A DNA stretch of 55,813 nucleotides from a virus. This document shows, piece by piece, positions 1 through 55,813 of this stretch. The stretch is taken from positions 1-55,813 of IMG/VR virus record IMGVR_UViG_3300002460_000038, one strand, 5' to 3'. The translations under genes were made by a program, and so were the position numbers. Numbering within the stretch: position 1 is the first letter of the stretch; each line of letters starts with the position of its first letter. The notes beneath the pieces were generated by a model. That model had not been told where the DNA came from, made no database searches, and worked only from the letters and a program-made list of their open reading frames with translations.

Positions 1-129
1 GCGGCCCGCCTCTACATGGTCGACCGTTGGAGCGATGCGGACAAGCGCCAGAAGGTCTTCGAGGAAGGCGTCGAGAGTCGGGCGTTGGAATTCTTTCTGA
101 GCCGGCCACTCGAGGGCGGTGTCCAGTGA
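1..129 (+). CDS. Endolysin (GH108 muramidase), C-terminal part
   Basis: Frame 1 is open from the first base to TGA at 127-129 and encodes AARLYMVDRW followed by a short tail ending in LEGGVQ. It continues, without a break in frame, the endolysin that begins at 55397 and runs off the right end with the same four residues AARL. The tail has the RALEFF stretch seen near the C-terminus of GH108 lysozymes. Joined through the shared 12 bases, the enzyme would be about 177 residues, normal for the family. The stop overlaps the GTG start of the next gene (GTGA). Confidence 0.85.
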   Translation, partial: AARLYMVDRWSDADKRQKVFEEGVESRALEFFLSRPLEGGVQ

Positions 130-16283: not shown

Positions 16284-16340
16284 CCATCAGATTGAGGCTG
16301 GCGCCTGGGCGATGTTCACGCGAGCGAGCTGGCGTCAGAC
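16284..16340 (+). repeat. 57-bp direct repeat, copy 2 (right flank of IS)
   Basis: Identical to 13474-13530, starting on the last base of the right inverted repeat and ending just before TGGCAACC. It again encodes HQIEAGAWAMFTRASWRQT in the frame that later becomes the type III Mod gene, so the Mod frame is open back to ATG 16270. Confidence 0.9.
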
Positions 16341-18754: not shown

Positions 18755-18933
18755 AGCCGGAGAACGTGCGCTGTCCAGAGTGCGGCGGCGAGATGGTGTC
18801 TCGCCTGAATCGCGAGAAGAACCAGCGGTTCTGGGGGTGCAAGGACTTCCCGAAGTGCAGGGGCACGCGCGACACCGACGGCCGGTCGAAGGCGGAGCGT
18901 CAGGCGCAGCGTGGAGATGGCGATGAGTCTTGA
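18751..18933 (+). CDS. Topoisomerase-type zinc-ribbon protein
   Basis: 60 residues from ATG 18751 (ATGA overlap). CPECGGEMVSRLNREKNQRF then WGCKDFPKCRGT is the C4 zinc-finger repeat found at the C-terminus of bacterial topoisomerase I, here as a stand-alone domain. It probably binds single-stranded nucleic acid. It overlaps the following HTH gene. Confidence 0.7.
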   Translation: MKPENVRCPECGGEMVSRLNREKNQRFWGCKDFPKCRGTRDTDGRSKAERQAQRGDGDES

Positions 18934-19204
18934 GGACCGCGCTCGCGACATCGTTCGAACCTCGGTCCGCGAAGAACGGAAGTCTCGCAAGCGTCGGCCG
19001 GAGCCACGTATCACCAACCCGGACACGCACCCGCGGCAATTCGTGAACCTCACCGTGGCCGCTGACTTCCTCGGCTTGGATGAGCGGACGGTGAAGGCCC
19101 GCATCGAGCAGGGCGACCTCGAAGCCACGCAGGACGGCAAGGTCTACCGCATTGCGGTGAGCGCGCTGGTCGCGTATCAGGCACGTCGACGGCTCGCCTC
19201 GTAG
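18923..19204 (+). CDS. Excisionase/MerR-like HTH protein
   Basis: 93 residues from ATG 18923 with GGAG upstream. A basic N-terminus (RKSRKRRPEPR) leads to a winged-HTH of the HTH_17 kind: NLTVAADFLGLDERTVKARI, EQGDLEAT, then KVYRIAVSALVAY. It lies just before the 139-bp intergenic region with several palindromes, so it may control terminase transcription. An excisionase role is unlikely since no integrase is seen. Confidence 0.6.
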   Translation: MSLEDRARDIVRTSVREERKSRKRRPEPRITNPDTHPRQFVNLTVAADFLGLDERTVKARIEQGDLEATQDGKVYRIAVSALVAYQARRRLAS

Positions 19205-19343: not shown

Positions 19344-20135
19344 GTGCCTGGCAAAGCCTCACGCGAAAACGGGAAGAAGGGCGGACGTCCCCGGAAACAT
19401 CCGCGCGCCAATCCGCCCGAAACGCCAGCGAAACCACTCGGAAAGTGGGCGCTCACGCGCCGTGAAGAACTCTTCGTCCATCAAATCGTTACCTTCCCTG
19501 AGAAAACCCAAGGCGAGTGCTACCGCGACGCTGGGTTCCGCGTGAAGACCGCGGACACCGCGTCGACGAATGCGGCGCGGTTGCTCGGAAAGGATCGAGT
19601 CGCCCGGGCGCTCGCGGCGGCGCGCCAGGCGTTGGCCGAGCGGCACCAGATTACGCAGGACCGCGTGCTGAAGGAACTCGGGCGCATTGGGTTTGCGGAC
19701 TTGCGGAAGCTGTTCGAGGAACGGCAGGGCCGCGGCGAGATGACGGCCGAGCAGATGTACGCGTCGGCCAATGCGGACTCCGCGACGAAGGCGCCGACGT
19801 TCGCCGAGTTGCCGGCGGCGGTGCAGGCCGCCTGGAAGGCCGCGGCGGCGATCGCGGGCTCGAAGGTCAGCGGCGGGTATTTCCTGAAGTCGCCCGACCA
19901 GCTCGACGACGACACGGCGGCGTGCCTCGCCGGCATCGAGGTCGTGACGAAGAACATCGGCGACGGCGAGGTTGAGTACGTCCACAAGGTGAAGACCGTG
20001 GACAAGTTGGGGGCGCTGACGACGATCGCGAAGCACCTCGGCATGTTGAAGGACAAGGGGGAGACCCCGAACGTGGTTCCGCTGTTCGCGCTGCCAGCGG
20101 ATGCCCGGCCTGATGTGAGCGGCGCAGGAACGTAG
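19344..20135 (+). CDS. terS: Terminase small subunit
   Basis: 263 residues from GTG 19344. The N-terminus is very basic (GKKGGRPRKHPR). It is followed by a terminase_2-type DNA-binding region, LTRREELFVHQIVTF, ECYRDAGFRVKTADTAS and NAARLLGKDRV, then a helical oligomerisation region. It should recognise the packaging site and present DNA to the large subunit. The 120-residue C-terminal part is longer than in minimal homologues. Confidence 0.8.
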   Translation: MPGKASRENGKKGGRPRKHPRANPPETPAKPLGKWALTRREELFVHQIVTFPEKTQGECYRDAGFRVKTADTASTNAARLLGKDRVARALAAARQALAERHQITQDRVLKELGRIGFADLRKLFEERQGRGEMTAEQMYASANADSATKAPTFAELPAAVQAAWKAAAAIAGSKVSGGYFLKSPDQLDDDTAACLAGIEVVTKNIGDGEVEYVHKVKTVDKLGALTTIAKHLGMLKDKGETPNVVPLFALPADARPDVSGAGT

Positions 20136-20141
20136 CGGCAC

Positions 20142-20492
20142 ATGGCAGACGAGAAAGATCCGACGAAGATGACCGCGACCGAGGCGAACGCGGCGGCTGC
20201 GAGCAGCGGCAATAGCGCGCCCGCGAAGGCGGCCAAGCGCACGCTGCTCGACGCGCTGAAGAATGGCGAATCGCTCTACACCCTCCGTTTCAAGGGCATC
20301 CGCGGGATGCAGGAAGTCAACATCCTGGCGTCCAGCGCGGAGAAGGCGGAACAGGTCGGGCGCGCGTGGGTGAACCTGCAGCCCGGGCGGCTCTACATCT
20401 CGGTCCATCCGGCACTCGTCGCGGACGAGTCGATTCTGGCGCAGGTGAATCAGCCCGACGCGGTCGGCGCCGGCGCGGTCGGCAAGCGGTGA
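20142..20492 (+). CDS. Hypothetical protein
   Basis: 116 residues. The first 38 are Ala/Thr/Lys-rich and probably disordered. A compact beta-alpha domain follows (SLYTLRFKGIRGMQEVNILA, then EKAEQVGRAWVNLQPG). No family recognised. It sits in the packaging operon and its stop overlaps the next start. Confidence 0.6.
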   Translation: MADEKDPTKMTATEANAAAASSGNSAPAKAAKRTLLDALKNGESLYTLRFKGIRGMQEVNILASSAEKAEQVGRAWVNLQPGRLYISVHPALVADESILAQVNQPDAVGAGAVGKR

Positions 20493-20611
20493 ACGAGGAC
20501 GACATGAAGCGCGCGGACCGGGCGGTGATGTTCGCGGCCGCGGGGATTCTGGTGCTTGGGCTGGTGCTCTGGTCTGGCCTGGCGCTGCTCGTCGCGGCGG
20601 TGCTCCAGTGA
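20489..20611 (+). CDS. 40-residue single-span membrane protein
   Basis: From GTG 20489 (GTGA overlap) a short charged N-terminus (NEDDMKRADR) precedes one long hydrophobic helix rich in Ala, Gly, Leu and Val. It overlaps the following gene in the same way. Too small to classify; a minor membrane-active peptide is possible. Confidence 0.5.
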   Translation: MNEDDMKRADRAVMFAAAGILVLGLVLWSGLALLVAAVLQ

Positions 20612-20976
20612 TCGACGCTCGCGCGGCGTCGACCGCCCCTGATCGACCGCAGGCCCCAGATGCTGGCTTCCGGTCGGTCGGGGCGCTCATTCAGGACATC
20701 ACCGCTGCCCACGGGCGGATGTCTGCGAACAATCCCCATCGCGCCATCCTCGAGCAGTGCGGCATCGCGCTCGGCGAACTCGCCGTGCAGCTCCACAACG
20801 AGCGGTCGAAGCACCGCGCTGCGGTCAAGGCGGTCCTGGACGCGGTCGTCGACATGCGGAATGTCGTTGCAGAACATCGGAAGTGGGCAGACGGTCTGAA
20901 CTTGCCGCAAGAGTCGTTGCTGTCGGCGATTGACGGGTGGGAAGAGGCGCTGTCCGGCATCGAGGGAGTCGTGTGA
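20608..20976 (+). CDS. Hypothetical helical protein
   Basis: 122 residues from GTG 20608. Mostly helical with segments such as AVKAVLDAVVDMRNVVAEHR and SLLSAIDGWEEAL. No motif recognised. Coupled to both neighbours by overlapping stop and start codons. Confidence 0.6.
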   Translation: MIDARAASTAPDRPQAPDAGFRSVGALIQDITAAHGRMSANNPHRAILEQCGIALGELAVQLHNERSKHRAAVKAVLDAVVDMRNVVAEHRKWADGLNLPQESLLSAIDGWEEALSGIEGVV

Positions 20977-21194
20977 TGCCGAAGGTGCTCTGTCAGGCGG
21001 AGACGGTCAACGGCTGCTTCCGTGTCGTCACCGGGAGCCCGAAGGCGGGCAGCGCGCCCGTCGTCGAGCGGCGCTCGACACCGGACGCGATGGGGATCGA
21101 CGTCTGGCAGCCGGTGACGGCCGACTGTGCGCTGCACGCGCTCGAGGCCGTGGTCGGGTATTTCGCCGCGGCCGACGCGGGAGGCGACGCGTGA
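20976..21194 (+). CDS. Small hypothetical protein
   Basis: 72 residues from ATG 20976 (TGATG coupling). Segments CFRVVTGSPKAGS and DCALHALEAVVGYFAA are seen. No family recognised. It ends in the GTGA that starts the terminase large subunit gene. Confidence 0.5.
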   Translation: MPKVLCQAETVNGCFRVVTGSPKAGSAPVVERRSTPDAMGIDVWQPVTADCALHALEAVVGYFAAADAGGDA

Positions 21195-24100
21195 ATGTTG
21201 TCCTCCTGGTCCTGCTGATGGCGACCACCGCAGTCCCTTCGCAGCGACGGTTGGGCGCGGCCGGCGTCGTCGAGACCCAGACGATTGATTGGGCCTCGCC
21301 CGTTCAGCACGCCGCGTTCAAGTACGGCCCGTTCCCGCAGCTCGCGTCCGGGGGCTTCGGCTGCGTGGCCGGTGATACGCGGATCTTCGATGCGGAGACG
21401 GCACGGGAGTGGACGTTTGCGCAACTCGCCGCCACTGGTCGTCAGCCGATCGTGTTGGCGTGGACGGGCGACGGGTTCGCGTGGGTGCGCGCGAGTGCAC
21501 CTGTTCGGAAGGGCGTGGCGCGGCTCTATCGGATTCGAACGCGGTCTGGGAAGTCCATCGTGGTTACTTCCGCCCACCGGTTTTTGACCGACTCAGGTTG
21601 GTCAAGTGCTGGCGATATGACCCGTTCCGATGCCCGCGCCGGACGCCTTCGAGTGTCCGACGTCGACCCTCTGGCGTCCACTCTGGGCATTTCCCTTTCA
21701 GTGTCTCAGCGAGATGTTGACTGTTTCCTGAATACAGGCGCAGGTTCTCAATCGCGTTGTGCTGGTGATCGTCGTCAACGTGATGGACGACCTCGGTCGG
21801 CTCGAGAAATCGTCCGATGGCCGCTTCCATCACCAGTCGGTGCTCGCGCACATAGCCTGCGGCGTTTGCGTGCGGATGTTGCGGACATTGCACCAGCACG
21901 TAGCCGTCCTTATCGATTGTCCGGCCGCCCTTCCAGTCTCGATGCTTCGCTCCAGGCTGCGCGCCTCGGTTCTGCACCGGGAAGCCATGACGATGACAGA
22001 AGCGGCGCACTTGCTCAGGCTCGACTGGGAGCCGGAGGCGCTCCTGAATCTCTGGACACGTCAAGCCTTGTTCTGCGAGATGGCGGATTTGGACAAGGAA
22101 CGGCACTAGCTGGCCACGCTCTTTCATGCCTTGATTATATCGTGGAAGTGGTGGATTTGGGTGAGGGTGAATTCTATGACGTGCACGTGCCCGTCTGGAA
22201 TAACTACCTCGCGCACGGCTTCATCAATCACAACTCCGGCAAGACCTACGAAGGCTGCCTGAAGGGCCTCTGGCTCTCGGATGTGTTCCCGCGTAACCGC
22301 GGGCTCATCTTCCGGTCCGTCGCCAAGGACCTCCGCGCGACGACGATGGCCACGTTCAAGAAAATCTGCCCGCCGTCGGCGTACAGCGCGCCGGATGCCG
22401 GATGGAACCGCATGGAGGGCCTGACCCGGTTGAACAACGGATCAGAGATTCTCTGGCTCGGGCTCGACAATCCGGAGCTCGAAGACATCCTGAAGGGGCT
22501 CGAAATCAACTGGTTCCTCGGCGACCAGGCGGAAGACACTGCCGAGGAAATCTTCGACACGCTCATGGGGCGCCTTGGCCGGTGGGACCAGGCGGAGGTG
22601 CCGCAATGGCTGCTCGATGAGGAAGATGCCGCCGGTCGCCCGTGGCGCTGGCGGCATCCTGTCTCCGGCAAGCCGACGCCGCCGACCTACCCGATGCTGA
22701 CGTGCAACCCGGACACCGAGCTGCACTGGCTGTATCGGCGCTTCCATCCCGAAAGCCCTGAGCATTACGACCGCCGCCTGCCGGACCTTGACCTGACGAC
22801 GGGCCAACCGACCGGCAAGCTCGTGAGCTATCACGACCTCGGGTACCGGCTGTTTCACATGCCGTCGCTCGAGAACAAGTTCCTGCCGGCGCAGAACCGC
22901 GCGCATCTGCTTGCGCAGGATGATGCGTTCCGCCGACGGTACGTCGAGGGCATCTGGGGCCTCCCGGAAGGCGCTATCCACGTCGTCGACAAGCGGTCGC
23001 TCATCACCTTGGAGGACCAGGCGCAGGCCGACGCGTTTCTCACGTTGCTGCGGGAGACGTGCACGCTGCACCGGTTCCTTGACCACGGCGACTCCGCGCC
23101 GACCTGCTGCCTGTGGCTGGCGATCGACCGCCAGGGCAACATGTTCTGGTTCCGCGAGTACTACGTTCCGAATCAGCTCATCTCGTATCACCGCCGCGAG
23201 ATCACGACCTTGTCGCAGGGTGAGCGGTACACCTTCAATCAGGCCGACCCGAGCATCTTCAACAAGACGATGCAGAAGCACGGCGGTCGCTGGTCGGTGG
23301 CCGACGAGTACGAGGACAAGCGCGAGAGCCCGGCTGAGACCGCCATCTTCTGGGAGCCAGCCGACAACAACGAGCTCGGCACCCGCAACCGCATCAACGA
23401 ATACCTCCGCATCGATCCGGAGCGCATCCACCCCTACACGAAGGAGCGCGGCGCGCCGCGGATGTTCTTCATCGTGCGGACGGACGCGTACCCGCAGGGC
23501 GTCATGCACGCGCTTCGTGAGACCAGGGCGCAGCGGCGCCAGAAGCTCGGGACCGAGATGGGGCGCCCGGTGTTCAGCGACGAGCGCGACGAGAACATTG
23601 CCGACCACGGGTATGACTGCCTCGCTGGCGACACGACTGTGCTCACGCGCGACGGGTGGCAGCCGATTGCGTCGCTGGTTGGAACCGAGAGCGACATCTG
23701 GACGCTGGCAGGGTGGCAGCCGTATACGGACTGCCGCCGTTACCGGAGTGGGAGCGCAATGGTTCGCGTTGAGACGCGCGAAGGCGCGTTCCGCTGCACG
23801 CCGGATCATTTGATTCTGACAAGCGATGGCTGGAAACGTGCCGACGCGCTCACGAGTCGTGATACCATAGCGCAATGCAACCAGTGGTCATATCTCGGAC
23901 CATTCAATCCTTCAAGGGACTCAGGTACTACCTCTGCGGCTTCTATTTTCAGCGCGATGGGAAGCGGCTTCATCGCGCAGTGTGGGAGCATCATCACGGC
24001 CCTGTGCCAGTTGGCCACCATGTCCATCACGTCGATGGCGACAGGGCCAATAATGGGGATGGCAACCTCGTGCTTCTCGCCGAATTCACGCACCTCAGCG

Positions 24101-24589
24101 GACACTCGAAACGATCAAAGCATGAGCGCGCCGTTGCCGCAATGCAGGCCGCTGCTAAGCGATGGCACGGCAGCGACGCCGGGAAGCAGTGGCACCGCGA
24201 ACACGTTGCCGACTCCCTCGGTGCGACGTGGATCCGCGACGTGGAGCGGGAATGCAGCGAGTGCGGCCGAACATATATGGCGGCTCGTGGCGCCGCGTCT
24301 CGAAGTTACGTCTGCAGCAACGCTTGCAAGAGCGTTCGGTTTCGGCGGCTCAACCCAGGTTACGACCGTCGTTTTAAGCGAACCCGCCGATAGCTACTGC
24401 CTGAGTGTTCCAGCCCCGCACGCGTTCGCGATTGCGGGTGGCTTCCTTGTCCATAACTGCCTCCGCTACGGCACGGCCAGCCGGGCGCCAGTTGCGCGGC
24501 AGCCACCGCCGAATGCCGACCCGCGGACGTTTGCCGGCCAGTCGCGGCTGTTGAAGCAGGCGTCGCGCCAAGTGCGGGGGGCGCGATGA
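21191..24589 (+). CDS. terL: Terminase large subunit with two inteins
   Basis: 1132-residue precursor from GTG 21191 (ATG 21218 is an alternative). Removing the inteins at 21362-22234 and 23618-24457 gives a 561-residue protein of normal TerL size. The spliced P-loop would read GGFG-SGKT, followed by a Walker B-like INWFLGDQAED. The nuclease half has FLDHGDSAP and the last acidic motif DHGYD-CLRYG, split by intein 2. It is the ATP-driven packaging motor and genome nuclease. Both inteins sit at essential sites, so the enzyme cannot work until they are spliced out. Confidence 0.9.
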   Translation: MNVVLLVLLMATTAVPSQRRLGAAGVVETQTIDWASPVQHAAFKYGPFPQLASGGFGCVAGDTRIFDAETAREWTFAQLAATGRQPIVLAWTGDGFAWVRASAPVRKGVARLYRIRTRSGKSIVVTSAHRFLTDSGWSSAGDMTRSDARAGRLRVSDVDPLASTLGISLSVSQRDVDCFLNTGAGSQSRCAGDRRQRDGRPRSAREIVRWPLPSPVGARAHSLRRLRADVADIAPARSRPYRLSGRPSSLDASLQAARLGSAPGSHDDDRSGALAQARLGAGGAPESLDTSSLVLRDGGFGQGTALAGHALSCLDYIVEVVDLGEGEFYDVHVPVWNNYLAHGFINHNSGKTYEGCLKGLWLSDVFPRNRGLIFRSVAKDLRATTMATFKKICPPSAYSAPDAGWNRMEGLTRLNNGSEILWLGLDNPELEDILKGLEINWFLGDQAEDTAEEIFDTLMGRLGRWDQAEVPQWLLDEEDAAGRPWRWRHPVSGKPTPPTYPMLTCNPDTELHWLYRRFHPESPEHYDRRLPDLDLTTGQPTGKLVSYHDLGYRLFHMPSLENKFLPAQNRAHLLAQDDAFRRRYVEGIWGLPEGAIHVVDKRSLITLEDQAQADAFLTLLRETCTLHRFLDHGDSAPTCCLWLAIDRQGNMFWFREYYVPNQLISYHRREITTLSQGERYTFNQADPSIFNKTMQKHGGRWSVADEYEDKRESPAETAIFWEPADNNELGTRNRINEYLRIDPERIHPYTKERGAPRMFFIVRTDAYPQGVMHALRETRAQRRQKLGTEMGRPVFSDERDENIADHGYDCLAGDTTVLTRDGWQPIASLVGTESDIWTLAGWQPYTDCRRYRSGSAMVRVETREGAFRCTPDHLILTSDGWKRADALTSRDTIAQCNQWSYLGPFNPSRDSGTTSAASIFSAMGSGFIAQCGSIITALCQLATMSITSMATGPIMGMATSCFSPNSRTSADTRNDQSMSAPLPQCRPLLSDGTAATPGSSGTANTLPTPSVRRGSATWSGNAASAAEHIWRLVAPRLEVTSAATLARAFGFGGSTQVTTVVLSEPADSYCLSVPAPHAFAIAGGFLVHNCLRYGTASRAPVARQPPPNADPRTFAGQSRLLKQASRQVRGAR
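21362..22234 (+). other. Intein 1, in the TerL Walker A loop
   Basis: 291 codons. Block A is CVAGDTRIFD with Cys1; block B is VVTSAHRFLTDSG with the usual T-x-x-H; block F is YIVEVVDLGEGEFYDVHVP; block G is NYLAHGFINHN followed by Ser+1. It lies between GGFG and SGKT of the P-loop. About 170 residues between B and F have no intein-like or LAGLIDADG sequence. That stretch is instead the complement of an HNH gene (21564-22127). The splicing residues look intact. Confidence 0.85.
21564..22127 (-). CDS. HNH endonuclease encoded antisense within intein 1
   Basis: 187 residues, minus strand, wholly inside intein 1. A helical N-terminus (LAEQGLTCPEIQERLRL, HTH-like) precedes the HNH core: REHRLVMEAAIGRF, EVVHHVDDDHQHNAIENLRL and NSQHL, with HH, N and H in place. 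On the minus strand TATAAT (22139 down to 22134) lies six bases before its ATG, so a nearly leaderless transcript is possible. Its frame looks far more protein-like than the sense frame across the same DNA. It is probably the homing nuclease of intein 1. Confidence 0.8.
   Translation of the reverse strand: MKERGQLVPFLVQIRHLAEQGLTCPEIQERLRLPVEPEQVRRFCHRHGFPVQNRGAQPGAKHRDWKGGRTIDKDGYVLVQCPQHPHANAAGYVREHRLVMEAAIGRFLEPTEVVHHVDDDHQHNAIENLRLYSGNSQHLAETLKGKCPEWTPEGRRRTLEGVRRGHRNGSYRQHLTNLSRSKTGGRK
23618..24457 (+). other. Intein 2, in the TerL nuclease motif
   Basis: 280 codons. Block A is CLAGDTTVLTRDGWQPIASL, block B is RCTPDHLILTSDGW, the C-terminal block is DSYCLSVPAPHAFAIAGGF and the end is LVHN followed by Cys+1. 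It splits DHGYD from CLRYG. Cys1, His-Asn at the end and Cys+1 are the canonical splicing residues. The stretch between B and F translates to a Ser/Ala/Thr/Met-rich string without known motifs, because the DNA there encodes an HNH protein in another frame. Confidence 0.85.
23875..24393 (+). CDS. HNH endonuclease encoded out of frame within intein 2
   Basis: 172 residues from ATG 23875, on the terminase strand but shifted by two bases. It has an HNH core: RLHRAVWEHHHGPVPVGHHV, then HHVDGDRANNGDGNLVLL and EFTHLSGHS. After a helical stretch comes a zinc-finger pair, CSECGRTYMAARG and CSNACKSVRFR. It ends inside the intein C-terminal block. I see no good ribosome binding site or promoter, so how it is expressed is unclear. 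It is probably the homing nuclease of intein 2. Confidence 0.8.
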   Translation: MQPVVISRTIQSFKGLRYYLCGFYFQRDGKRLHRAVWEHHHGPVPVGHHVHHVDGDRANNGDGNLVLLAEFTHLSGHSKRSKHERAVAAMQAAAKRWHGSDAGKQWHREHVADSLGATWIRDVERECSECGRTYMAARGAASRSYVCSNACKSVRFRRLNPGYDRRFKRTRR

Positions 24590-24765
24590 AGACATGGACT
24601 GTCCTCGTCGGTCCCGCAGCGATTCGCATCGGGAAGTATTGGCGTCCTGTGCTGTCAGGAGACGTGTGGCTTCCGCGGCGGTTCATGACACCAGAAGCGG
24701 CCCTGCGTTATGCGGCGCAGCAGGAAGCAAAACTCGCGCGGCCGGAGACGACGACACATGGCTAA
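24586..24765 (+). CDS. Small hypothetical protein between terL and portal
   Basis: 59 residues from ATG 24586 (ATGA overlap with terL). Segments WTVLVGPAAIRIGKYWRPVL and FMTPEAALRYAAQQE look folded. The end overlaps the portal gene start by eight bases. No family recognised. Confidence 0.55.
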   Translation: MKTWTVLVGPAAIRIGKYWRPVLSGDVWLPRRFMTPEAALRYAAQQEAKLARPETTTHG

Positions 24766-26737
24766 GAAGCCCGCGCCGAAGAAGGCCGCCTCGAAGGGCT
24801 CGGCCGTGCGCCGTGCCACTGCGCCACCGAAGGACGAGCGCGAAGAGGACCGCGTTAAGGATTGGTTCGGCAAGATCCGCGGCGCCGACAAGGCGTACGA
24901 GGAATGGGAGAAGCGCTTTTCCGTCAAACGCGGCGAGGACTATTACGAGGGGCGCCAGTGGTACGGGCTGCCCGAGGCCGACGCCGACAAGCGGTATGTC
25001 ATCAACATCACCGCCGCGGCCGTCGAGACGCAGAAGCCGTCCCTGCTCTTCGACAATCCACAAATCCGGATCGAGCCGCGTCCGTCGCGCAAGGACGAAC
25101 TGAGCCGCCAGACGCTCGACGATGAAGCCAAGCTGGCCACGCAGGCCGTGCAGACGTTCATCGACGACCCGGACGTCAAGTTCATACTCGAAACAGGGCT
25201 GGGCGTGCACGAGGCGCACTTCCGGTTCGGGCTCGTCGAGGTCGGCTACACCGCCGACTTCCTCGACAACCCGCACGCGGGCAAGCCGCTGATTCCGTCG
25301 GACCCGACCAAGGCGGGCGAGCTGCCGGAAGGCGCGGGCGAGAACACCGTCGACACGGAGGCAGAGGACGCGGCCACCGAGGCCGGCGCCGACGGCGAGG
25401 CGGAGGCTGGCCCGCTGCAGCCTGACAAGGTCGTCCAGCCTGGCACCGAGCGCATCTACGTGAAGCGCGTGCCCGCCGAGTCGTTCCGGGTGTCGCTGTC
25501 AGGCAAGAACGACCTCAGCGCCAACGATTGGGTCGGCTACTTCGAATGGGTGTACGTCAGCGACCTGAAGGCCAACGCCAAGTACAAGAACACCGATGAT
25601 CTGAAATCCACCGGCACCATTGACCAGAAATACCGCCCGAGTGCCAACAGTCAGGACCTCGAAGCGAAGCACGGCATGGTCAAGGTCTGGAAGCTCTGGG
25701 ACCTCCGTGGGAAGGTCAAGCACGTGCTGGCCGATGGGCATCAGAAGTTCCTGCTCGAAGGCGAGCCGTGGAAGATTGTCCCGTTCGCCGACCTGAAGTT
25801 CCTCGAGCGCCCGAACCACTACTACCCGAAGCCGGTGGTGTTCGACTGGCTCAGCCCGCAGGACGAGCTGAACGAGCAGCGCGAGCAGGCGCGGAACCAC
25901 CGCCGCCGGTTCGAGCGCAAGTACACGTACCGCGACGGGTCGATCGAGGACACCGAACTGCAGAAGCTTCAGGACGGCGGCGACGGCACCTTTGCGAAGT
26001 CGCTGAAGGAGCACCCCATCGAGCCGGTGCCGGACGCGCCGCTCGGCGCGCAGAACCTGCAGTCTGGCGCGATGGCCGAGCAGGACTTCACGATGGTCTC
26101 CGGGGTCAGCGGGGAGCAGCGCCAGGTGGCCACCGCCGACACCGCGACCCAAGCCAGCATCATGGACTCGCGGGCTAGGCTGCGCGAATCGGCTGCCCGC
26201 ATAAAGGTGCGGAATTGGCTCGGGCAGATCGGGCGCCTGATGCTCCTGCACATGCGCGAGCACATGACGCTGCCGTTCATCATCAAGCAGCAACTCGACC
26301 TCCAGACCGCCACGCCCGAGGAAGTCCTCATGACCGCGCTGCGGTGGCAGGCCATCACGGCGAAGGACCTCGGCGAAGTCGACATGGAAGTGTCGGTGTC
26401 CCTTGACTCGCTGTCGCCCATTGTCCAGGAGACGGAGCGCGCCTCGTGGAACCAGGTGCTGGCGCTCATCGCGAATCCCGGCATCCGCCTGATGCTCTCG
26501 TTCAGTGATGCGCTGCTCCGGAAGACGCTGGACCTCTACGGCGTCACCAGCGAGCGCGACATCGTCGAGCTGAAAGGCGTCATGCAGAAGATGACGGAGT
26601 TGGAGCAGCTTGCGGCTGGCGCAGCGATGGAGGGTGGCAGTGCTGGCGTGACGGCTACGGCCGGGCCGCAGAAGCAGCCGCCAATGCTGCCTGGTCACGC
26701 TGGCGCGTTGCCTCCGCCAGCAACGGTGGTGCAGTGA
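24758..26737 (+). CDS. Portal protein
   Basis: 659 residues from ATG 24758. A lysine/alanine-rich start is followed by features of podovirus-type portals: EDYYEGRQWYGLP, INITAAAVETQKPSLLFDNP early, then FDWLSPQDELNEQREQARNH in the middle and a long helical crown region. A Glu/Ala-rich insertion lies near 185-225. It follows terL, the usual place, and would form the 12-fold ring through which DNA is packaged and ejected. Confidence 0.8.
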   Translation: MAKKPAPKKAASKGSAVRRATAPPKDEREEDRVKDWFGKIRGADKAYEEWEKRFSVKRGEDYYEGRQWYGLPEADADKRYVINITAAAVETQKPSLLFDNPQIRIEPRPSRKDELSRQTLDDEAKLATQAVQTFIDDPDVKFILETGLGVHEAHFRFGLVEVGYTADFLDNPHAGKPLIPSDPTKAGELPEGAGENTVDTEAEDAATEAGADGEAEAGPLQPDKVVQPGTERIYVKRVPAESFRVSLSGKNDLSANDWVGYFEWVYVSDLKANAKYKNTDDLKSTGTIDQKYRPSANSQDLEAKHGMVKVWKLWDLRGKVKHVLADGHQKFLLEGEPWKIVPFADLKFLERPNHYYPKPVVFDWLSPQDELNEQREQARNHRRRFERKYTYRDGSIEDTELQKLQDGGDGTFAKSLKEHPIEPVPDAPLGAQNLQSGAMAEQDFTMVSGVSGEQRQVATADTATQASIMDSRARLRESAARIKVRNWLGQIGRLMLLHMREHMTLPFIIKQQLDLQTATPEEVLMTALRWQAITAKDLGEVDMEVSVSLDSLSPIVQETERASWNQVLALIANPGIRLMLSFSDALLRKTLDLYGVTSERDIVELKGVMQKMTELEQLAAGAAMEGGSAGVTATAGPQKQPPMLPGHAGALPPPATVVQ

Positions 26738-28677: not shown

Positions 28678-28874
28678 ACGTCATTGAGGCAATGGAGCGA
28701 ATGTTGGAGGACGGGCCTCCGATGTCTCAGGAGCCGCAGCGCATCGTCATGTCCGGCGCAGAGATGGCCGCGTTTACAGTGGCGTGCCAGCGCGTGGGCG
28801 TTCCTCCGACGTCCGATTACTATTGGGCGTGGAAATTGAACGACCCACTCTTTGGTGGGCAGTTTTCGGCTTGA
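28674..28874 (+). CDS. Small hypothetical protein
   Basis: 66 residues from ATG 28674. Begins MNVIEAMERMLEDGPPMSQE and ends before the promoter at 28871, whose -35 box overlaps its stop. No family recognised. Confidence 0.5.
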   Translation: MNVIEAMERMLEDGPPMSQEPQRIVMSGAEMAAFTVACQRVGVPPTSDYYWAWKLNDPLFGGQFSA

Positions 28875-28899
28875 CACCCTGATCGTCGAGGCGTAATCT
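28871..28899 (+). promoter_or_regulatory. Strong sigma70-type promoter, unit 1
   Basis: TTGACA at 28871-28876, a 17-bp spacer and TAATCT at 28894-28899. It is one of the best promoters in the window. It drives the short RNA ending at the terminator 28940-28982 and, on read-through, the scaffold/capsid operon. Confidence 0.65.
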
Positions 28900-28905
28900 C
28901 GGCGG

Positions 28906-28982
28906 TAACAATTCAGATTCGCGGGCGACCGCACCAAGCGAGCCCGGTTCCAGGAATGACCTTCCTGGGGCCGGGCTCTTTT
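28906..28982 (+). ncRNA. Putative 77-nt RNA, unit 1 (promoter-leader-terminator)
   Basis: Between the promoter and terminator lies a leader beginning ACAATTCA and containing TTCGCGGGCGACCG, both shared with unit 2 at 55021. No ORF fits. It may be a stand-alone small RNA, or the initially transcribed leader of an antitermination-controlled late operon like lambda pR'-6S-tR'. Confidence 0.5.
28940..28982 (+). terminator. Intrinsic terminator, unit 1
   Basis: GAGCCCGG (28940-28947) pairs with CCGGGCTC (28971-28978); inside it CCAGGAA (28950-28956) pairs with TTCCTGG (28962-28968). TTTT follows. The 46 bases 28939-28984 are identical to 55052-55097. Confidence 0.8.
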
Positions 28983-28988
28983 GCGTTT

Positions 28989-29498
28989 ATGGGCACATTT
29001 CAGATTCCTCTCTACGACAAGCACGACAACGTCGTGGCCCACGCCACGGTCGATGAGCAGGACTTCGCCCGCCTGAGCCACCTTCGATTCACGGCGCTCA
29101 GGACGAAGAGCGGCATCTATGGTGTTCAGTTCCGCGCGGTCAATGGGTCCACCGAGGCCACCCTGCTTCATCGACTCGTGCTTGGTGACCCTCCGTTCGA
29201 TGGTGCCGAGGTAGACCACCGAAACCGGAACACCCTCGATACCCGCCGCGAAAACCTGCGTTGGGTGACGCACGCCCAGAACCTTCAGAACCGACCATCC
29301 CAGAAGAACGCCACGTCGGCGCATCGCGGTGTCCATTGGGACCGCTGCGAACAGCGATGGGTTGGTGAGATTCGTCGCGAGGGTCGTCGTGTATGGCGAC
29401 GGTACTTTCGCGACCAGCTCGAAGCGGCGGTGGCAGTGTCTGCCGCGCGACGAGTGTTCCTGCCGTTCTCTGTTGAGAACGGCGTATTGGCGTCCTGA
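28989..29498 (+). CDS. HNH endonuclease (homing type) after terminator unit 1
   Basis: 169 residues from ATG 28989. An in-frame ATG at 28956 lies inside the terminator hairpin and is unlikely. The core LLHRLVLGDPPFDGAEVDHR, NRNTLDTRRENLRWVT and AQNLQNR is the HNH_3 type. A C-terminal AP2-like segment follows (HRGVHWDRCEQRWVGEIRRE). It looks inserted directly behind the promoter/terminator unit, separating it from the head genes. Confidence 0.8.
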   Translation: MGTFQIPLYDKHDNVVAHATVDEQDFARLSHLRFTALRTKSGIYGVQFRAVNGSTEATLLHRLVLGDPPFDGAEVDHRNRNTLDTRRENLRWVTHAQNLQNRPSQKNATSAHRGVHWDRCEQRWVGEIRREGRRVWRRYFRDQLEAAVAVSAARRVFLPFSVENGVLAS

Positions 29499-29630: not shown

Positions 29631-30587
29631 ATGCCTCCAGGTTCTTCGGCAGTGCTCGACGACGCAGCGGCCACCGGCACCACCGGCAGTCAGGCAACTG
29701 ACGACACCGGCACCGGGGACGCGGCAGTCGATACCGCCACGCAAACGTCGCAGCAGACCGACGGGACGGCGGGTGCGACGGATGACACCGACCCAGAAGA
29801 AGTCTCGGCTGGACTGATCTCACGCGAAGACTACGACCGGACGAAAGACGACCCGGCCGCGTTTCGCAAGGCGATTCTCAAAGGCTTCACCCAAGCGACC
29901 CAGAAAACTTCCGCCGAGCGGAAGAACCTGGCGGCCTGGTCTGACATCCGAGACGCCTTCAATGAGGATGCGCCAACGGCCCTCAAGCAGTTGGCGGAAC
30001 AGTTCGGATTCGAGATCCGTGACCCGAAGGCGGACGACACGTCGACCACGTCGACGACTGCCGCGACGAATGCGGGCGATGAAGCCGTCGCCGAGCTCAA
30101 GGAGGCGCTCTCGGGCGTCGGCCTTGACGAGCTCGCCGACAAGCTCGCCCCGGTCATTCGGAAGATTGCTGACAAGGCCGCGGGCGCCGCGACCGAGCCG
30201 CTCCGGACCCACCAGGAGAAGTTGATCGAGGAAAGCACCCAGCGGGAGACCAAAGCCACGCTGGATGCCTTCGGGAAATCGCACCCGGACTACAAGCCGG
30301 GCAACGCCATCGATAAGGCGATGGCGAAACTCTCGAAGTCGCTCTTGCCCGCCGAGGGCATGAACGAGCTGGAATACCTCGACAACCTCTACGTCCTGGC
30401 GACGAAGGACGACATGGTCAAGAAGGCCGCGCAAGAGGCGATCGACCGCATGACGAAGAACGCGCAGACGACCGACGGGAAGAAGGCGTCCACGGTCACG
30501 GGGGACAAGGTTTCGACGGGCAGACCGGCAGGCGCCGGCTTCCGTCAGGCCGCAGAAGCCGCGAGACGCGGCGAGCGCTGGGACTAA
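29631..30587 (+). CDS. Scaffolding protein
   Basis: 318 residues. A Thr/Asp/Ala-rich disordered N-terminus of about 60 residues is followed by an acidic, strongly helical body (AVAELKEALSGVGLDELADK). It ends in a basic short tail (FRQAAEAARRGERWD). This composition and position directly before the major capsid gene are typical of podovirus scaffold proteins. No protease signature is visible. Confidence 0.7.
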   Translation: MPPGSSAVLDDAAATGTTGSQATDDTGTGDAAVDTATQTSQQTDGTAGATDDTDPEEVSAGLISREDYDRTKDDPAAFRKAILKGFTQATQKTSAERKNLAAWSDIRDAFNEDAPTALKQLAEQFGFEIRDPKADDTSTTSTTAATNAGDEAVAELKEALSGVGLDELADKLAPVIRKIADKAAGAATEPLRTHQEKLIEESTQRETKATLDAFGKSHPDYKPGNAIDKAMAKLSKSLLPAEGMNELEYLDNLYVLATKDDMVKKAAQEAIDRMTKNAQTTDGKKASTVTGDKVSTGRPAGAGFRQAAEAARRGERWD

Positions 30588-30615: not shown

Positions 30616-31671
30616 ATGCCTCCGTCCTCACTGACACTCGGATACGACGCAGTACTTGCGACCACGTTTTTCAACTGGTCGAAGACGCTGTTCGACACCA
30701 TCAGCAAGTCCAATTACTTCCTCTTCCACCTGATGAAGGAGGTCGAGAGTGGTTGGGATCTGATCGATGACATCGGGGATCGCGCCGCGATGCCGCTCAT
30801 GTATGAAATCGGCACGGCCGACTCGTACAGCGGCTACGACATCCTCGACGTGACGCCGACCGACGGCATCACGGCGGCGTTCTACGACTGGCGCCAGGCG
30901 TCGGTCCCCATCTCCATCAGCGGGCTCGAAGAGCAGAAGAACAAAGGCGAAAGCCGGATGCTCAATCTGCTCGAGGCCAAGACCAAGCAGGCCGAACTCG
31001 GCATGCAGGACTTCTTCAACAAGTCGCTGCTGCAGGGCAACGGCGGCTCGGCCATCACGACGGCGTACACGTCGGCGATGAACGGGTCGCAGTTCCTCGA
31101 CCCGCTGCCGCTGCTGGTGAAGTACGACCCGACGACCTCGACCACGGTGGGCAACATCCCGCAGGGGACGCACACCTGGTGGCGGAACCAGACCCTCAAC
31201 AGCACGTCGAGCACGTACAAGGCGTTCCTCAAGGACCTCCGGAAGTTGTTCAACGACAGCTCGAAGGGGCCCGGCGGCAAGCCGAACCTGCACCTCACCG
31301 ACCAGGGCGTCTACGAACTCTACGAGGCGGCGCTGGCCGACCAGCACCGGAACACCTCGTATCAGCGCGCCGACATCCCGTTCGACAACATCCTGTTCCG
31401 CGGGAAGCCGGTCACGTGGGACGAGTACGTGCCGGACGTGCAAGGCGGCTCGGCGACGCAGTCCACGACGTCCGGGACGTGGTGGATGCTCAATACCGAA
31501 TTCTGGAAGGTGAAGGTCGACAAGGACCGGAACTTCAAGGCGACCCCGTTCCAAAAGCCGGAAAACGGTGATTCCCGCGTGGGGCACATCCTGTTCCTCG
31601 GCGCCGCGGTGTGCGGCAACCGACGCAAGCAGGGCGTGGCCGGCGGGGTCGACACGACCATCGCGTCGTAA
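30616..31671 (+). CDS. Major capsid protein
   Basis: 351 residues with AGGGAG before the ATG. HK97-like features: helical E-loop region early (MLNLLEAKTKQAELGMQDFF), a glycine-rich central part, and LHLTDQGVYELYEAAL followed by FDNILFRGKPVTWDE, a pattern common in capsid P-domains. Position after the scaffold supports it. No close named relative is recalled. Confidence 0.8.
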   Translation: MPPSSLTLGYDAVLATTFFNWSKTLFDTISKSNYFLFHLMKEVESGWDLIDDIGDRAAMPLMYEIGTADSYSGYDILDVTPTDGITAAFYDWRQASVPISISGLEEQKNKGESRMLNLLEAKTKQAELGMQDFFNKSLLQGNGGSAITTAYTSAMNGSQFLDPLPLLVKYDPTTSTTVGNIPQGTHTWWRNQTLNSTSSTYKAFLKDLRKLFNDSSKGPGGKPNLHLTDQGVYELYEAALADQHRNTSYQRADIPFDNILFRGKPVTWDEYVPDVQGGSATQSTTSGTWWMLNTEFWKVKVDKDRNFKATPFQKPENGDSRVGHILFLGAAVCGNRRKQGVAGGVDTTIAS

Positions 31672-47059: not shown

Positions 47060-48649
47060 ATGGCGGTCGACCAGATCATCAACGCATTCGTGGCGGGTCG
47101 GCAGATCCGCGACGCGCAGCTCCGGAAGCAGCAGGAAGCCGAGGACCGGAAGCTCGAGCAGGAAGGGCTTGCGCTGCGCCTGAAGCATCTGAAGCTCGAA
47201 GAGAAGCTCCAGGCGCGCACCCTGGCGAAGCAGAACCTCGATTTGATGCAGGGCTTGCCCGAGGCGCAGTTGACCGAAGGTGGCGTGTTGCCGGCGAGCG
47301 GTCCTGGGCTCGTGACCCAGCGAAAGAAGGTGACGATTCCAGGCGTCGAAGAGCTCGGCGTCGAGGGCCTGACCGTGCAACCGCAGAGCATGGAAGAGGT
47401 GCTCGCGGCGCGCGCCGCCGAGGACCGCCGGAAGATTCTCGAGATTCTCGGCACGCCGCGGGAGGTGGGCGGGCGTCTCGTGACGCCAGCCGGGCCAGAC
47501 GGGAAACCCGTCGTGCACTACGAGCCACCGAAGGAAGCCAAGGCGGTCACGTTCCGCAATGAAGTCCGTCTCGTGGACGGCCGTCGTCGTGACGTCCTGC
47601 TCGGCTCTGACGGGAACTGGTACATGCCCGGTGCCGGCACACCGTTCACCGGAAAAGTGGAACCGGTCCCAGAGAAGACTGGCGACGGTGATGGCACGTC
47701 AAAGATCACGGCCGCACAGAGGAATCAGGCGGAGCGGTGGAAGTTCACGCAACTTGACAATCTGGAGCAGGAGTACCGCGACTCTCACGCGCCAGCTGGC
47801 GCGAGCGGCACCACGATTCAGAACGCTGACGGGTCGGTGATTTCGCTCGGCGGCGGCTCTGGGCGTTCGAAGCGGTCGCCGATGCCGCCGGAAGAACTGG
47901 ACACGCGCAAGCTCCAGATCGAGAACGCGTACCGCCTGCAGGTCGGTTTGCAGCCTCACACGTCGGCTGCCGCCACGTCTACGCCCGCACTGACGACCAC
48001 GCCTGATTCCGCATCGCGCCGTACGCCTGTGGCCGCGCGTGGGACTGGGTACCAGCCACCCGCGTCGAGGGCGTCAGCGCCAGTAGCCGCCGAGCCGGTG
48101 TCCAAAGCGGCCGGCATCACGGTCATGGCGCAGGGACAGCCTTACGTGTTCGACACCCAGGAACAGGCTGACGCGTTCTTGCGGGACGTCGAGTCGGTAT
48201 CTTCTGCCCCAGTGGCTTCGGCACCAGCACCTGCGACCTCGCGTGCGGCCGCCGTGCGGCCTGCGCCTGTGGCGGCGCGGCTGGTACCCCGTCCCGCGCC
48301 CAGGTCAAAAGCGTCGGCGACATCGCCAGCGCTGGCCAAGGCAAAGACGACCAGCGCACCCGCACGGACGCCACGCGAGCCTGTGCGGCTCGTAAAAGGC
48401 ACGACATCGACGCCAGCGGATTCGTTCCGCAGCGTCGCCGAGGCCGCGCGCCGAGTCTGGGGTGAAGTCGCCTCCAGGGCCACCGGCACGCATCGCCTCA
48501 TTGCCAAGATCAACGAGGACGCGAAGAAGCACGGCGGGTTGAAGGGGCTGCTCGCGTACGTGGATGCCAACGCGGACAAGCTGCGGAACAACGGTTTTCG
48601 GGTGGAGCAGTATCGAAAAGCCATCGTGGCGAGGATGCGGGACGAGTAG
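47060..48649 (+). CDS. Internal virion/ejection-type protein, coiled coil plus linker
   Basis: 529 residues with AGGAGG before the ATG. Residues of about 10-75 form a charged coiled coil (QLRKQQEAEDRKLEQEGLAL). The middle is beta-rich and residues 300-450 are Ala/Pro/Ser-rich low-complexity. A helical end follows (SVAEAARRVWGEVASRATGT). Lying between the small hydrophobic virion protein and the giant protein, it probably is one of the proteins ejected with the DNA. Confidence 0.5.
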   Translation: MAVDQIINAFVAGRQIRDAQLRKQQEAEDRKLEQEGLALRLKHLKLEEKLQARTLAKQNLDLMQGLPEAQLTEGGVLPASGPGLVTQRKKVTIPGVEELGVEGLTVQPQSMEEVLAARAAEDRRKILEILGTPREVGGRLVTPAGPDGKPVVHYEPPKEAKAVTFRNEVRLVDGRRRDVLLGSDGNWYMPGAGTPFTGKVEPVPEKTGDGDGTSKITAAQRNQAERWKFTQLDNLEQEYRDSHAPAGASGTTIQNADGSVISLGGGSGRSKRSPMPPEELDTRKLQIENAYRLQVGLQPHTSAAATSTPALTTTPDSASRRTPVAARGTGYQPPASRASAPVAAEPVSKAAGITVMAQGQPYVFDTQEQADAFLRDVESVSSAPVASAPAPATSRAAAVRPAPVAARLVPRPAPRSKASATSPALAKAKTTSAPARTPREPVRLVKGTTSTPADSFRSVAEAARRVWGEVASRATGTHRLIAKINEDAKKHGGLKGLLAYVDANADKLRNNGFRVEQYRKAIVARMRDE

Positions 48650-51600: not shown

Positions 51601-54600
51601 GCTTCAGGACACCCCTGACGTCGTCAAGGCATTCCGCAAGGTCGGCAAGATGGGCGAGTTCCGCCCCGGCGGCATTCGACTCGCCGCCGAACTCTTCAAG
51701 AAAGGGAACGAGTATCAGCTCGCCGGCGCACTCGCCCACGAAATCGGACATCTGGTCGATTGGCTCCCCGACAAGACGCTGAAGCGGGGCAACCTGATCG
51801 GCCGTCTGCTCACGCTGCAGTCGTTCTTGAAGCACACGTTTACGGCGCTTGACGGCACGACGGTGAAGAATGCCGACGTACGGAAGGAGTTGATGGCCCT
51901 GTCCGACGCCTGGCGCCCGTGGAACCGTGCCACGGCGTCCGCGTCCTTCCGGGCCTACCGGCACAGCGGGAAGGAACTCTACGCCGACGCGATCTCGGTT
52001 CTGCTGAACAACCCAGGGATGTTGGAGGCGCAGGCGCCGATCTTCTATCGCGAGTTCTTTGCGGCCCTCGACCGGAAGCCGGACGTGGAGCGCGCGTACT
52101 TCGACCTGCAGGAGGTGCTCTCCGGCACGCGCGACGAACTGGTGTGGCGACGGAGGTCCGGCGTCCGCCGCATGTTCGAGGAAGGCGACGCGAAGGCGCT
52201 CGACCTCGAACGTCGGCGCGTGGAGACACTCAAGCAGCGCGGCAAGGATTTGTGGTTCCGGCTGAAAACACAGCTCGTCGACAAGAACTACGCCGTCATC
52301 GACCGCGTGCGGTCGCTGCAGAAGCAGGGTGTCCGCATCGCGGACGACGACAACCCGCTGTACCTGCTCGAAGAGCGGAACTATCTCGGCGGCAAATTGA
52401 AAGCGTTCACCGAGCGCCACTTCGCGCCGATCTTCAAGACGCTGACCGAGGCTGACGTGTCGTGGCACGCCTTCAGCGAAGCACTCTTCTACGAACGTAT
52501 CATCGCGGGCGACCGCTCCGAGCTGGCGAACCCGCGCGGACTCAGCCCGAAGGCCGCTGCGGAGTTATACGACAGCCTCAAGACCGAGTTGGGCGGTGAG
52601 CGCTCGCGCATCCTCAGCCAGTCCATTCCCGCGTTTCGAGCGGTCGTCAAAGGCGTGGCCGAGGATGCCCACGACGCAGGGCTCTACACGGATGAACTCT
52701 ATGCGCAGATGCAGGCGAATCCGGCGTACGTCTCGTTCCAGGTCCTCGACCACATGGAAGACGGTGTCACGTCGCGGGTGCACAGGCAGATCGGCACGCT
52801 CAAGGACATCGCCAACGTCGCCGACGCGTCGATCCTGAAAACACTGGTCACGTTGCGCGCGATCGAGCACCAGAAGGTGAAGCGGGCGACGTTTACGTTT
52901 CTCAAACAGCAGTACGCGGGGGACATTCATCCCGCCAAGACGGTGTGGAGTGGCAAGGGCCATCGCCCGATCGAGTCGAAGGACCCCGACCAGAAGCTGA
53001 TTACCTACTTTGAGAAGGGCAAACTCGCCGGCTACTACGTCGACCCGTACGTCGCGGCGGCACTTGAGAACGAATCGGTCGGTCAGAATTGGGCGGTCCT
53101 GCAGCTCCTGCGTGTGCCGAACAAGGTGTTCCGTCCGCTCTTCACGTCGCTGAACCTCGGATTCCAAGGGTTCAACGTCATGCGGGACTTCTGGCGCTTC
53201 TGGAAGAACGTCCCGACGATGACGCTGCCGCGCGCCATGAAGCGGTATCTCGAGGCTGTCCCTGTGGCCAAGCTGAGAGCGTTTGGTACGCCGGACCGTG
53301 CCATGACGCCGAAGGAGCTCGCCGCCTACAAGGACCTTCTCGATGCCGAAGAGGCACAGATCCTCTCGGTCACGTTTAATGATCTGATTCTCGGTCGTCA
53401 GGTCGAGGACACGCAGGTCGAGGACATCCTGGCGCGCACCGGTGTTGGTGGGTTCCGCGTGACGCCGCGGCATCCGTTCACGCGTCCATTTCTCACGGTG
53501 CTCGAGTGGATCAAGGAGACGGGGGACTTCATTGAAACGCTGCCGAAGGCGGCTGGCCTCTACGAGTTCAAGGGAAAAGGCCCCATTGCCGGCATCACGG
53601 CGGCGCAGCGGAGTTTCATCCGTCGCAAGGTCGGCAGCCCGGATTACCTCGCGGGTGGCACCCTCAAGCCGGTCAGCAATGAATTGTTTCTGTTCTCCAA
53701 CGCCATCACCCAGGCGATGCGCTCGGATCTCGAAGTCGCGACCGAATCAAAGACGCGCAGCGGATTCTGGTGGAAGACGGCGAAGCTGAATCTCTTGCCA
53801 AAGGTACTGCTGTGGGGCGCGCTGTCCGGCCTACTCGGTGACACCTTGCGACGGCTCCTGCAACGCACCAGCGAGTACGACCGGACGAACTACCTCATTC
53901 TGCCGCTGGGAGAAGACGAGCGAGGAAACACCGTGTACGTCCGGTTGCCGCAGGATGACAGCGGGCGCCTGATTGGCGGGCTGTTCTGGAAGCTCCTACA
54001 AATCGCGCGGGGAGAACCGGACGTGGTGAAAACGCTGGCGCAGGTGGTCGACTACACGGCCGGTCAGGTCCCCAGCGTGACGCCAGCGATCACGGCCGGC
54101 AAGGATGTCGTCTCGTTCGCCGCCGGCCAGAACCCCTACGATGATTTCCGGGGCCGGAATCTCTTTACCGACGACGAGTTGAAGGCACGGGACTGGCGAT
54201 CCCTGAAGAAGTTTGTCGGCTACGAATTCCAGAATTTGGGCGGCGGCATCGTCTGGAAATTCTATCCAGGCGAGCAGCGCCCTCGCGATCTGTCGCGCGG
54301 CCAGCGCATTCTCGATCTACCGGTCCTCTCGAACGTCATCGGCCGGTTCATTCGTGTGACGAACTTCGGCGAGGTCGAATCGCTCCGCGGGGCAAAGGCG
54401 ACGACAGAACGTGACGAAGCCCGGCGTCGTCTCCGAGAACGCGAGGCGGTCTACGACACCGTGCGGGCGCTTGGGGCGGCGCCGAAGCCTGGTGCGGTGA
54501 TCGTGGCAGCCGCCAAAATCGCCGGCGAGCTGTACCCAGATGACCCAAAAGAAGCCGGGCGCAGGATGCCAGAGCTCCGGCAGGCCATCAGCCTTGGCCT

Positions 54601-54985: not shown

Positions 54986-55014
54986 TTGTAAGTCGGCGAT
55001 CGGCAGCGTAGAAT
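54986..55014 (+). promoter_or_regulatory. Sigma70-type promoter, unit 2
   Basis: TTGTAA at 54986-54991, 17-bp spacer, TAGAAT at 55009-55014. The arrangement matches unit 1 at 28871. It drives the short RNA and, on read-through, the lysis genes across the contig junction. Confidence 0.6.
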
Positions 55015-55020
55015 CGGCGC

Positions 55021-55095
55021 ACAATTCAATTTCGCGGGCGACCGAATACCACGAGCCCGGTTCCAGGAATGACCTTCCTGGGGCCGGGCTCTTTT
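55021..55095 (+). ncRNA. Putative 75-nt RNA, unit 2 (promoter-leader-terminator)
   Basis: Begins ACAATTCA and includes TTCGCGGGCGACCG as in unit 1, then the same terminator. Only the bases between the leader motif and the hairpin differ. Conservation of leader, spacing and terminator, but not of the promoter spacer, suggests the RNA itself or its leader is selected. Confidence 0.5.
55053..55095 (+). terminator. Intrinsic terminator, unit 2
   Basis: GAGCCCGG (55053-55060) pairs with CCGGGCTC (55084-55091), with the inner CCAGGAA/TTCCTGG stem, then TTTT. Identical to unit 1 over 46 bases. Confidence 0.8.
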
Positions 55096-55133
55096 GCTTT
55101 CTGGCCCACTGCGCGGCACGCAGGGACCCGGAC

Positions 55134-55400
55134 ATGGTTGATCACCCCGACGCCGTCGAGACGATTCCAGTGACCGCCACGCCAACCGATTGGGCACGTA
55201 TCGTTGCGACCGTCGGCGTGCCTTCGCTGATCTCGCTGCTGCTCGTGTGGTTTTTGGTGTCCGGCATCGTGAGTGATGTCCAGGCGATGCGCACGGAGCA
55301 CCAGGAGTTGAGGTTTTACCTTCGCGCCATCTGTGTCAACACCGCCAAGACCGAAGCCGAACGCGCGGCTTGTGTCCTTCCGCCACCCCACCAGCCATGA
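55134..55400 (+). CDS. Holin-like single-span membrane protein
   Basis: 88 residues from ATG 55134. An acidic N-terminus, one membrane helix (VGVPSLISLLLVWFLVSGIV) and a charged helical tail. It directly precedes and overlaps the endolysin gene (ATGA). A one-span holin or an inner-membrane spanin are both possible. The tail has two cysteines but no lipobox. Confidence 0.6.
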   Translation: MVDHPDAVETIPVTATPTDWARIVATVGVPSLISLLLVWFLVSGIVSDVQAMRTEHQELRFYLRAICVNTAKTEAERAACVLPPPHQP

Positions 55401-55813
55401 CGGTCGACCAGATCATCGACGGCATCCTCGAGCGCGAGGGCGGCTACGACGACCATCCCTCCGACAAGGGCGGCCCTACGAACATGGGTGTCACGGCCGT
55501 CGTGCTCGGCGAATGGCGCCATCTCGGCCGAGCGGCCACGCGTGAGGAAGTCAAGAATCTCCAGCCTGCCGAAGCGCGAGCCATCTGCCGAGCACGGTAC
55601 ATCGCCGGGCCTGGCTTCGAGCGGATTCCCTTCGAACCGCTCCGCGCGCAGCTCTGTGACTTTGGGTACAACTCCGGACCCGCGCGGGCGATCCGCTGGC
55701 TGCAGCGCGTGCTGCAGGCTCCAGAGACCGGCGTGCTCGACGCACTGACGCTCGCCGAGCTCGGGCGACATGACGCGCACCTTGTGAACGATGCGCTCGT
55801 GGCGGCCCGCCTC
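55397..55813 (+). CDS. Endolysin (GH108 muramidase), N-terminal part
   Basis: 139 residues from ATG 55397 to the contig end, completed by 13-129 after circular joining. The GH108 signature LEREGGYDDHPSDKGGPTNM followed by GVT lies at residues of about 11-33, with the catalytic Glu of the EGGY motif. FDYNSGP appears as CDFGYNSGP. It cleaves the glycan strand of peptidoglycan and needs the upstream holin-like protein to reach it. No signal peptide is visible. Confidence 0.9.
   Translation, partial: MTVDQIIDGILEREGGYDDHPSDKGGPTNMGVTAVVLGEWRHLGRAATREEVKNLQPAEARAICRARYIAGPGFERIPFEPLRAQLCDFGYNSGPARAIRWLQRVLQAPETGVLDALTLAELGRHDAHLVNDALVAARL

Follow-up and report, generated by a model that had tools for sequence, protein, structure and literature searches.

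The genome of the uncultured phage analyzed here (a stretch of 55,813 nucleotides, referred to as the window) contains two copies of a compact unit in which a predicted promoter is followed by a short conserved leader and a strong predicted terminator, one copy before the capsid genes (unit 1) and one before the lysis genes (unit 2). This layout is best read as a switch that is off until something permits RNA polymerase readthrough. Since a promoter aimed at its own terminator can supply downstream genes only via readthrough, we interpret the unit as a late promoter that is attenuated and relieved by conditional antitermination, a reading to which we assign a probability of roughly 55%. The original prediction described in unit 2 the leader start, motif and 46-bp terminator of unit 1 with a different promoter spacer and different inter-motif bases, and a check of the sequence found all of these elements in place (Table 1).

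Table 1. The two units and their adjoining genes (positions in the window).
Feature	Positions	Strand	Remarks
Unit 1 promoter	28871-28899	+	TTGACA 28871-28876, 17-bp spacer, TAATCT 28894-28899; sequence prediction
Unit 1 leader, ACAATTCA-GA-TTCGCGGGCGACCG	28908-28931	+	ACAATTCA 28908-28915; 14-mer motif 28918-28931
Unit 1 intrinsic terminator (predicted)	28939-28984	+	46-mer as in unit 2
HNH endonuclease gene	28989-29498	+	begins 11 nt past unit 1 hairpin
Scaffold-like gene	29631-30587	+	59% identical in G001; scaffold by position
Major head protein gene	30616-31671	+	phrog_9953
Unit 2 promoter	54986-55014	+	-35 TTGTAA 54986-54991, 17-bp spacer, -10 TAGAAT 55009-55014; sequence prediction
Unit 2 predicted RNA 5' end, ACAATTCA	55021-55028	+	6 nt past -10; start inferred from spacing
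Unit 2 leader motif, TTCGCGGGCGACCG	55031-55044	+	contains GGCGACC
Unit 2 intrinsic terminator (predicted)	55052-55097	+	46-mer identical to that of unit 1; hairpin 55053-55091, then TTTT
88-aa ORF	55134-55400	+	directly 3' of unit 2; putative holin, by position only; no family match
Endolysin gene	55397-55813	+	phrog_315, 1.2e-26; frame crosses record ends to about base 130

Unit 1 lies 3' of the terminase (19344-24589) and portal (24710-26737) genes and 5' of the genes for an HNH endonuclease, a scaffold-like protein and the major head protein. Since terminase and portal are upstream, the late genes that unit 1 can control are limited to those downstream. The HNH gene had no homologue in the related loci compared, G001 included, and its frame has an in-frame ATG within the loop of the unit 1 terminator (28956-28989). 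Unit 2 lies 3' of a gene for a 2022-aa protein and an 87-aa ORF, and 5' of the 88-aa ORF and the endolysin gene. The two ends of the record (1-12 and 55802-55813) have 12 bases exactly in common, and the endolysin ORF spans the junction; thus this "linear" record probably represents a full circular map, and the late operon probably runs on from base 55813 to base 1. In unit 2, the bases AT separate ACAATTCA from TTCGCGGGCGACCG, eight bases separate TTCGCGGGCGACCG from the hairpin, and the hairpin itself is GC-rich, with 17 bp and a 5-nt loop. In both units the predicted terminator hairpin begins at +33, ahead of the adjoining genes, and is followed by a short U-tract (TTTTGC).

Several other features of the genome were recorded. 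An IS1595-family transposase gene (13885-14814) is flanked by a perfect 57-nt direct repeat (13474-13530 and 16284-16340), and a 40-nt repeat at 98% identity is found before the transposase (13796-13835) and in the 2022-aa gene (52362-52401). A gene for an Xre-type repressor (region 1705-1993) is preceded by a AAACTTTTTGTTGACAAAAGTTT palindrome with promoter-like bases. Lastly, a gene of the structural region coding for 529 aa and the endolysin gene are 92% identical over their initial 25 bases (47060-47084 and 55397-55421).

The original observation is correct and exceeds what chance would give. The two unit hairpins are the top two among all 45-nt plus-strand folds of the window (-34.8 kcal/mol, against a background mean of -12.6 and sd of 4.2 kcal/mol), and the unit leaders fold more stably than their shuffles (z of -6.2 and -5.5). 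The pattern TTGnnn-16..18-TAnnnT occurs five times on the plus strand and twice on the minus strand in 55.8 kb, and two of the five plus-strand matches are the unit promoters, 8 nt (unit 1) and 6 nt (unit 2) before ACAATTCA. The 14-mer TTCGCGGGCGACCG is not diagnostic by itself, because with two mismatches allowed it has 3 matches in the window against 3.1 expected, and a motif search of bacterial genomes gave many chance matches. Similarly, chance hits were among the matches listed in a loose-pattern scan of genome contigs, and blastn of the 80-nt unit against cultured phages and plasmids returned short chance matches only. Among 122 occurrences of the motif in the compared loci, leader, arm, hairpin and T-run come together only in the window and G001. 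In an Rfam scan of the window at gathering score the unit matched no family; only a tRNA was found.

A repeat search of the window aligned 80 nt of the two units at 89% identity, and the 46-mer terminator is identical in both. Compared without gaps, the 60 nt before ACAATTCA are 25% identical (13-40% when shifted by -2 to +2) and the 60 nt after the 46-mer 35% identical. Since the flanks are at chance level, the shared part is this small block alone. A very recent duplication of a large block, the outcome that was to overturn the original prediction, is contradicted by these unrelated flanks and by orthologous units at the capsid-operon position of other uncultured phages. The argument that the transcribed part has outlasted the promoter holds both between the two copies and, at GGCGACC, across four viruses. 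The 46-mer is the same in units 1 and 2 while that of G001 differs, and thus copying or conversion between the units is likely.

Comparison with other viruses indicates that some phages conserve the unit as a cis element at their capsid operon; the copy at the lysis genes has so far been seen in this phage only. G001 (7.6 kb) has one unit, with TTGACA-17-TAACCT, ACAACTTA, the same 14-mer and a related hairpin, and order and spacing of promoter, leader and terminator match those of units 1 and 2. Its unit adjoins the scaffold gene, which is followed by a capsid gene 84% identical to that of the window; the portal is 56% identical. In L138, and in L139 with the same stretch, the corresponding position before scaffold and capsid is occupied by TTGATT-17-CACACT, ACAGCATTTTAGCGGGCGACC and a terminator that differs in sequence. 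L158, from G006, has a capsid 37% identical to that of the window and TTTAGCTAGGCGACCGTACACAACGA before its terminator. GGCGACC is exact in all five aligned units of these four viruses (units 1 and 2, G001, L138 and L158), and is kept in the leader although the terminator sequence has changed, with compensating changes in the stem. RNAalifold found both-side changes at 8 of 19 predicted pairs, all eight in the terminator stem. Base composition alone would produce GCGGGCGACC within 45 nt of L138 with a probability of about 2e-4 and GGCGACCG in L158 with one of about 3e-4. L223 and L225 have GGGCTACC in place of the motif, and the leaders of L140 and L184 are longer, with ACAATTCA or ACAAGTTCA. 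In L206, L211, L231 and L250, the 3' arm of a hairpin before the scaffold gene holds a GGAGG-like ribosome site, followed by a T-run and ATG.

The distribution of the unit bears on the proposal that one control signal governs both head and lysis genes. Among the phages compared, the proposal fits this one alone. In G014 (44.4 kb), the capsid unit before the scaffold gene is the strongest terminator site of the record, and no strong site was found before the holin and endolysin genes. G006 has one copy in 29.6 kb. G002-G005, which are related to our phage via the 2022-aa protein and, as far as tested, are not relatives in the capsid region, have no copy of the unit.

A survey of capsid loci points to the same place. 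Of 102 loci, 20 were removed by judgement as repeats or near-repeats, leaving 82; from one batch of 80 loci, 64 were used, the others being repeats of loci already included or L217, which has almost no upstream sequence. In 10 of the 82 loci, the capsid gene is preceded by a strong terminator at a distance of 750-1249 nt. Strong hairpin-plus-T sites on the coding strand number 10 in 162 bin-loci at that distance and 21 in 3950 elsewhere (odds ratio 12.3, Fisher p 1.5e-7), where the 500-nt interval was picked after examples had been seen and some of the 82 loci are still related. Since 72 of the 82 loci are without a strong terminator there, the trait belongs to some lineages. The exact heptamer GGCGACC is present in only 3 of the 10 loci with a strong upstream terminator. 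Strong terminators form another cluster, of 11 sites, 1500-2250 nt beyond the capsid start.

Regulated readthrough, as with AlpA, Q and GafZ, is the use for which such a layout is known, and antitermination is the best reading, though an inferred one. In lambda, a promoter-proximal terminator has the late genes behind it. Lambda-type late promoters (Q/qut; families 21Q, lambda-Q and 82Q) likewise have a promoter, an early terminator and the late genes after it (PMC9371919); in contrast, our phage has no detected Q homologue, has its conserved element in the transcribed leader and, instead of a single late promoter, has two copies, before the capsid and before the lysis genes. AlpA, the structure of which is reported in PMC9371919, lets polymerase bypass terminators that begin at +54 (alpB) and +26 (PA0807) (PMC7969949). 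The Pseudomonas aeruginosa system (PMC7969949) resembles ours in having two promoters, one of them for lysis genes, with terminators that start 26-54 nt into the leader; it differs in that the AlpA site lies between -10 and -35, no AlpA homologue was detected in our phage, and the controlled genes are not the same. GafY/GafZ in the Caulobacter gene transfer agent cluster provide antitermination of capsid-type genes from a proposed site between -10 and -35, and their terminator consists of three 150-bp repeats after the first gene, whereas here a hairpin lies 33 nt into the leader (PMC11150451).

For Q and AlpA the loading site lies between -35 and -10, as is proposed for GafZ, with a -10-like pause sequence after the start for Q and AlpA (PMC9371919, PMC7969949, PMC11150451). 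The -35/-10 spacers of our units are weakly alike; GATCG is present in those of unit 1, unit 2 and G001 and absent from that of L138. Judged by eye, -10-like bases early in the transcript are AACAAT and CACAAT (units 1 and 2), CACAAC (G001) and CACAGC (L138), a fair pause sequence in the window's two units and a weaker one in G001 and L138. Because conservation is poor in the spacer and constraint is strongest in the transcribed leader, loading may differ from that in the Q, AlpA and GafZ systems.

Leader RNA elements also precede terminators at lambda nut/boxB and HK022 put. Here too a leader element lies before a terminator, and CGG-GCGA-CCG could form a GNRA-like mini-hairpin. We rejected a boxB-like mini-hairpin as a conserved feature, since the sequence is kept and the structure is not: the outer pair is broken in two of the five units and each of the next two pairs in one, and RNAalifold found no both-side, compensating change among the five. 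A literature search, mostly below full-text level, found no account of such a unit before a capsid operon.

Start site, termination, factor and timing enter our model as follows. We postulate that a host-type RNA polymerase begins at ACA, transcribes a leader of about 32 nt containing GGCGACC and then runs into a strong intrinsic terminator, so that a short transcript of about 75 nt results. At the late stage of infection, polymerase would be let past by a phage factor that probably loads either close to the promoter or on the leader. Readthrough would then switch on the operon for scaffold and capsid from unit 1 and, in this phage, also that for holin and endolysin from unit 2. GGCGACC is a candidate loading site, pause or RNA-binding site. 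A more specific and rather doubtful form of the model makes GGCGACC, which lies within the first 25 bases of the transcript, a new kind of antitermination loading signal, recognized either as nontemplate DNA or as the RNA of a paused complex. The signal would let a phage factor load and pass the terminator, and would then have been copied here, tying lysis to capsid production.

Antitermination is favored by the matched anatomy, the strongest folds, the shared place at the capsid operon, the compensating changes, the invariant GGCGACC, the enrichment at capsid loci and the published parallels. It is weakened by the missing factor homologue, the weak likeness of the spacers, the short U-tracts and the weaker pause sequence in relatives, and also by the 72 of 82 loci without a strong terminator there, the post hoc interval, the heptamer in 3 of 10 loci and the lack of a lysis copy in G014.

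The main rival to antitermination is a fixed, leaky attenuator and insulator, in which the hairpin blocks readthrough from genes upstream and passes a constant fraction of polymerase from a constitutive promoter, thereby setting dose without a phage factor. The short TTTTGC tract in both copies, the differences in terminator strength and sequence among relatives, and the presence of only small hairpins 5' of the scaffold gene in other relatives are consistent with such leakiness. However, a fixed attenuator leaves the invariant leader heptamer unexplained, and a promoter upstream of a terminator would mostly be wasted; we consider this reading somewhat unlikely. The product could instead be the short RNA itself, which would act in trans as a phage sRNA of about 75 nt with two source loci, its conserved core pairing with a target or binding a protein. 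A discrete promoter-to-terminator unit, a near-identical RNA from two loci and a conserved core would suit an sRNA, but those relatives that carry the unit have it directly 5' of the scaffold-capsid operon, suggesting a role in cis, and an Rfam match is absent; this we regard as improbable. We think it more improbable still that transcripts pass the hairpin and carry it as a 5' stabilizing structure or translation-control leader that protects late mRNA. Hairpins do sit just before start codons, as with the HNH ATG, and overlap a Shine-Dalgarno-like stretch in L206, L211, L231 and L250, but T-runs come after the hairpins and the window hairpin leaves the lysis ribosome site uncovered. Lastly, a small functionless block duplicated through recombination, with which the identity of the 46-mer in both copies and its difference in G001 would agree, is barely credible given orthologous units with compensating changes in other viruses, and is contradicted for unit 1.

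Our antitermination reading calls for a phage factor. No homologue of Q, N, P7 or AlpA and no member of an antiterminator family was found among the phage proteins scanned. A zinc-ribbon ORF and an HTH_17 ORF (18751-19204) lie directly before the small-subunit gene of the terminase, a position at which late regulators are usually encoded. The candidate regulator is the small HTH_17 ORF (18932-19204) directly 5' of that gene, a weak lead as the late factor. At the corresponding position, G014 has a weakly HTH_17-like ORF (E 0.011, short of the curated cut-off and without direct alignment), and a PDB search with the ORF of our phage gave no convincing relative.

If our reading is correct, a promoter, a GGCGACC leader and a terminator before the scaffold-capsid genes would provide a sequence handle on late control in an uncultured phage group, the capsids of which are distant kin of those of Mx8. 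The unit would also offer a definite starting point in the search for a new antitermination factor, and would show that a late switch can be reused for lysis timing inside one genome.
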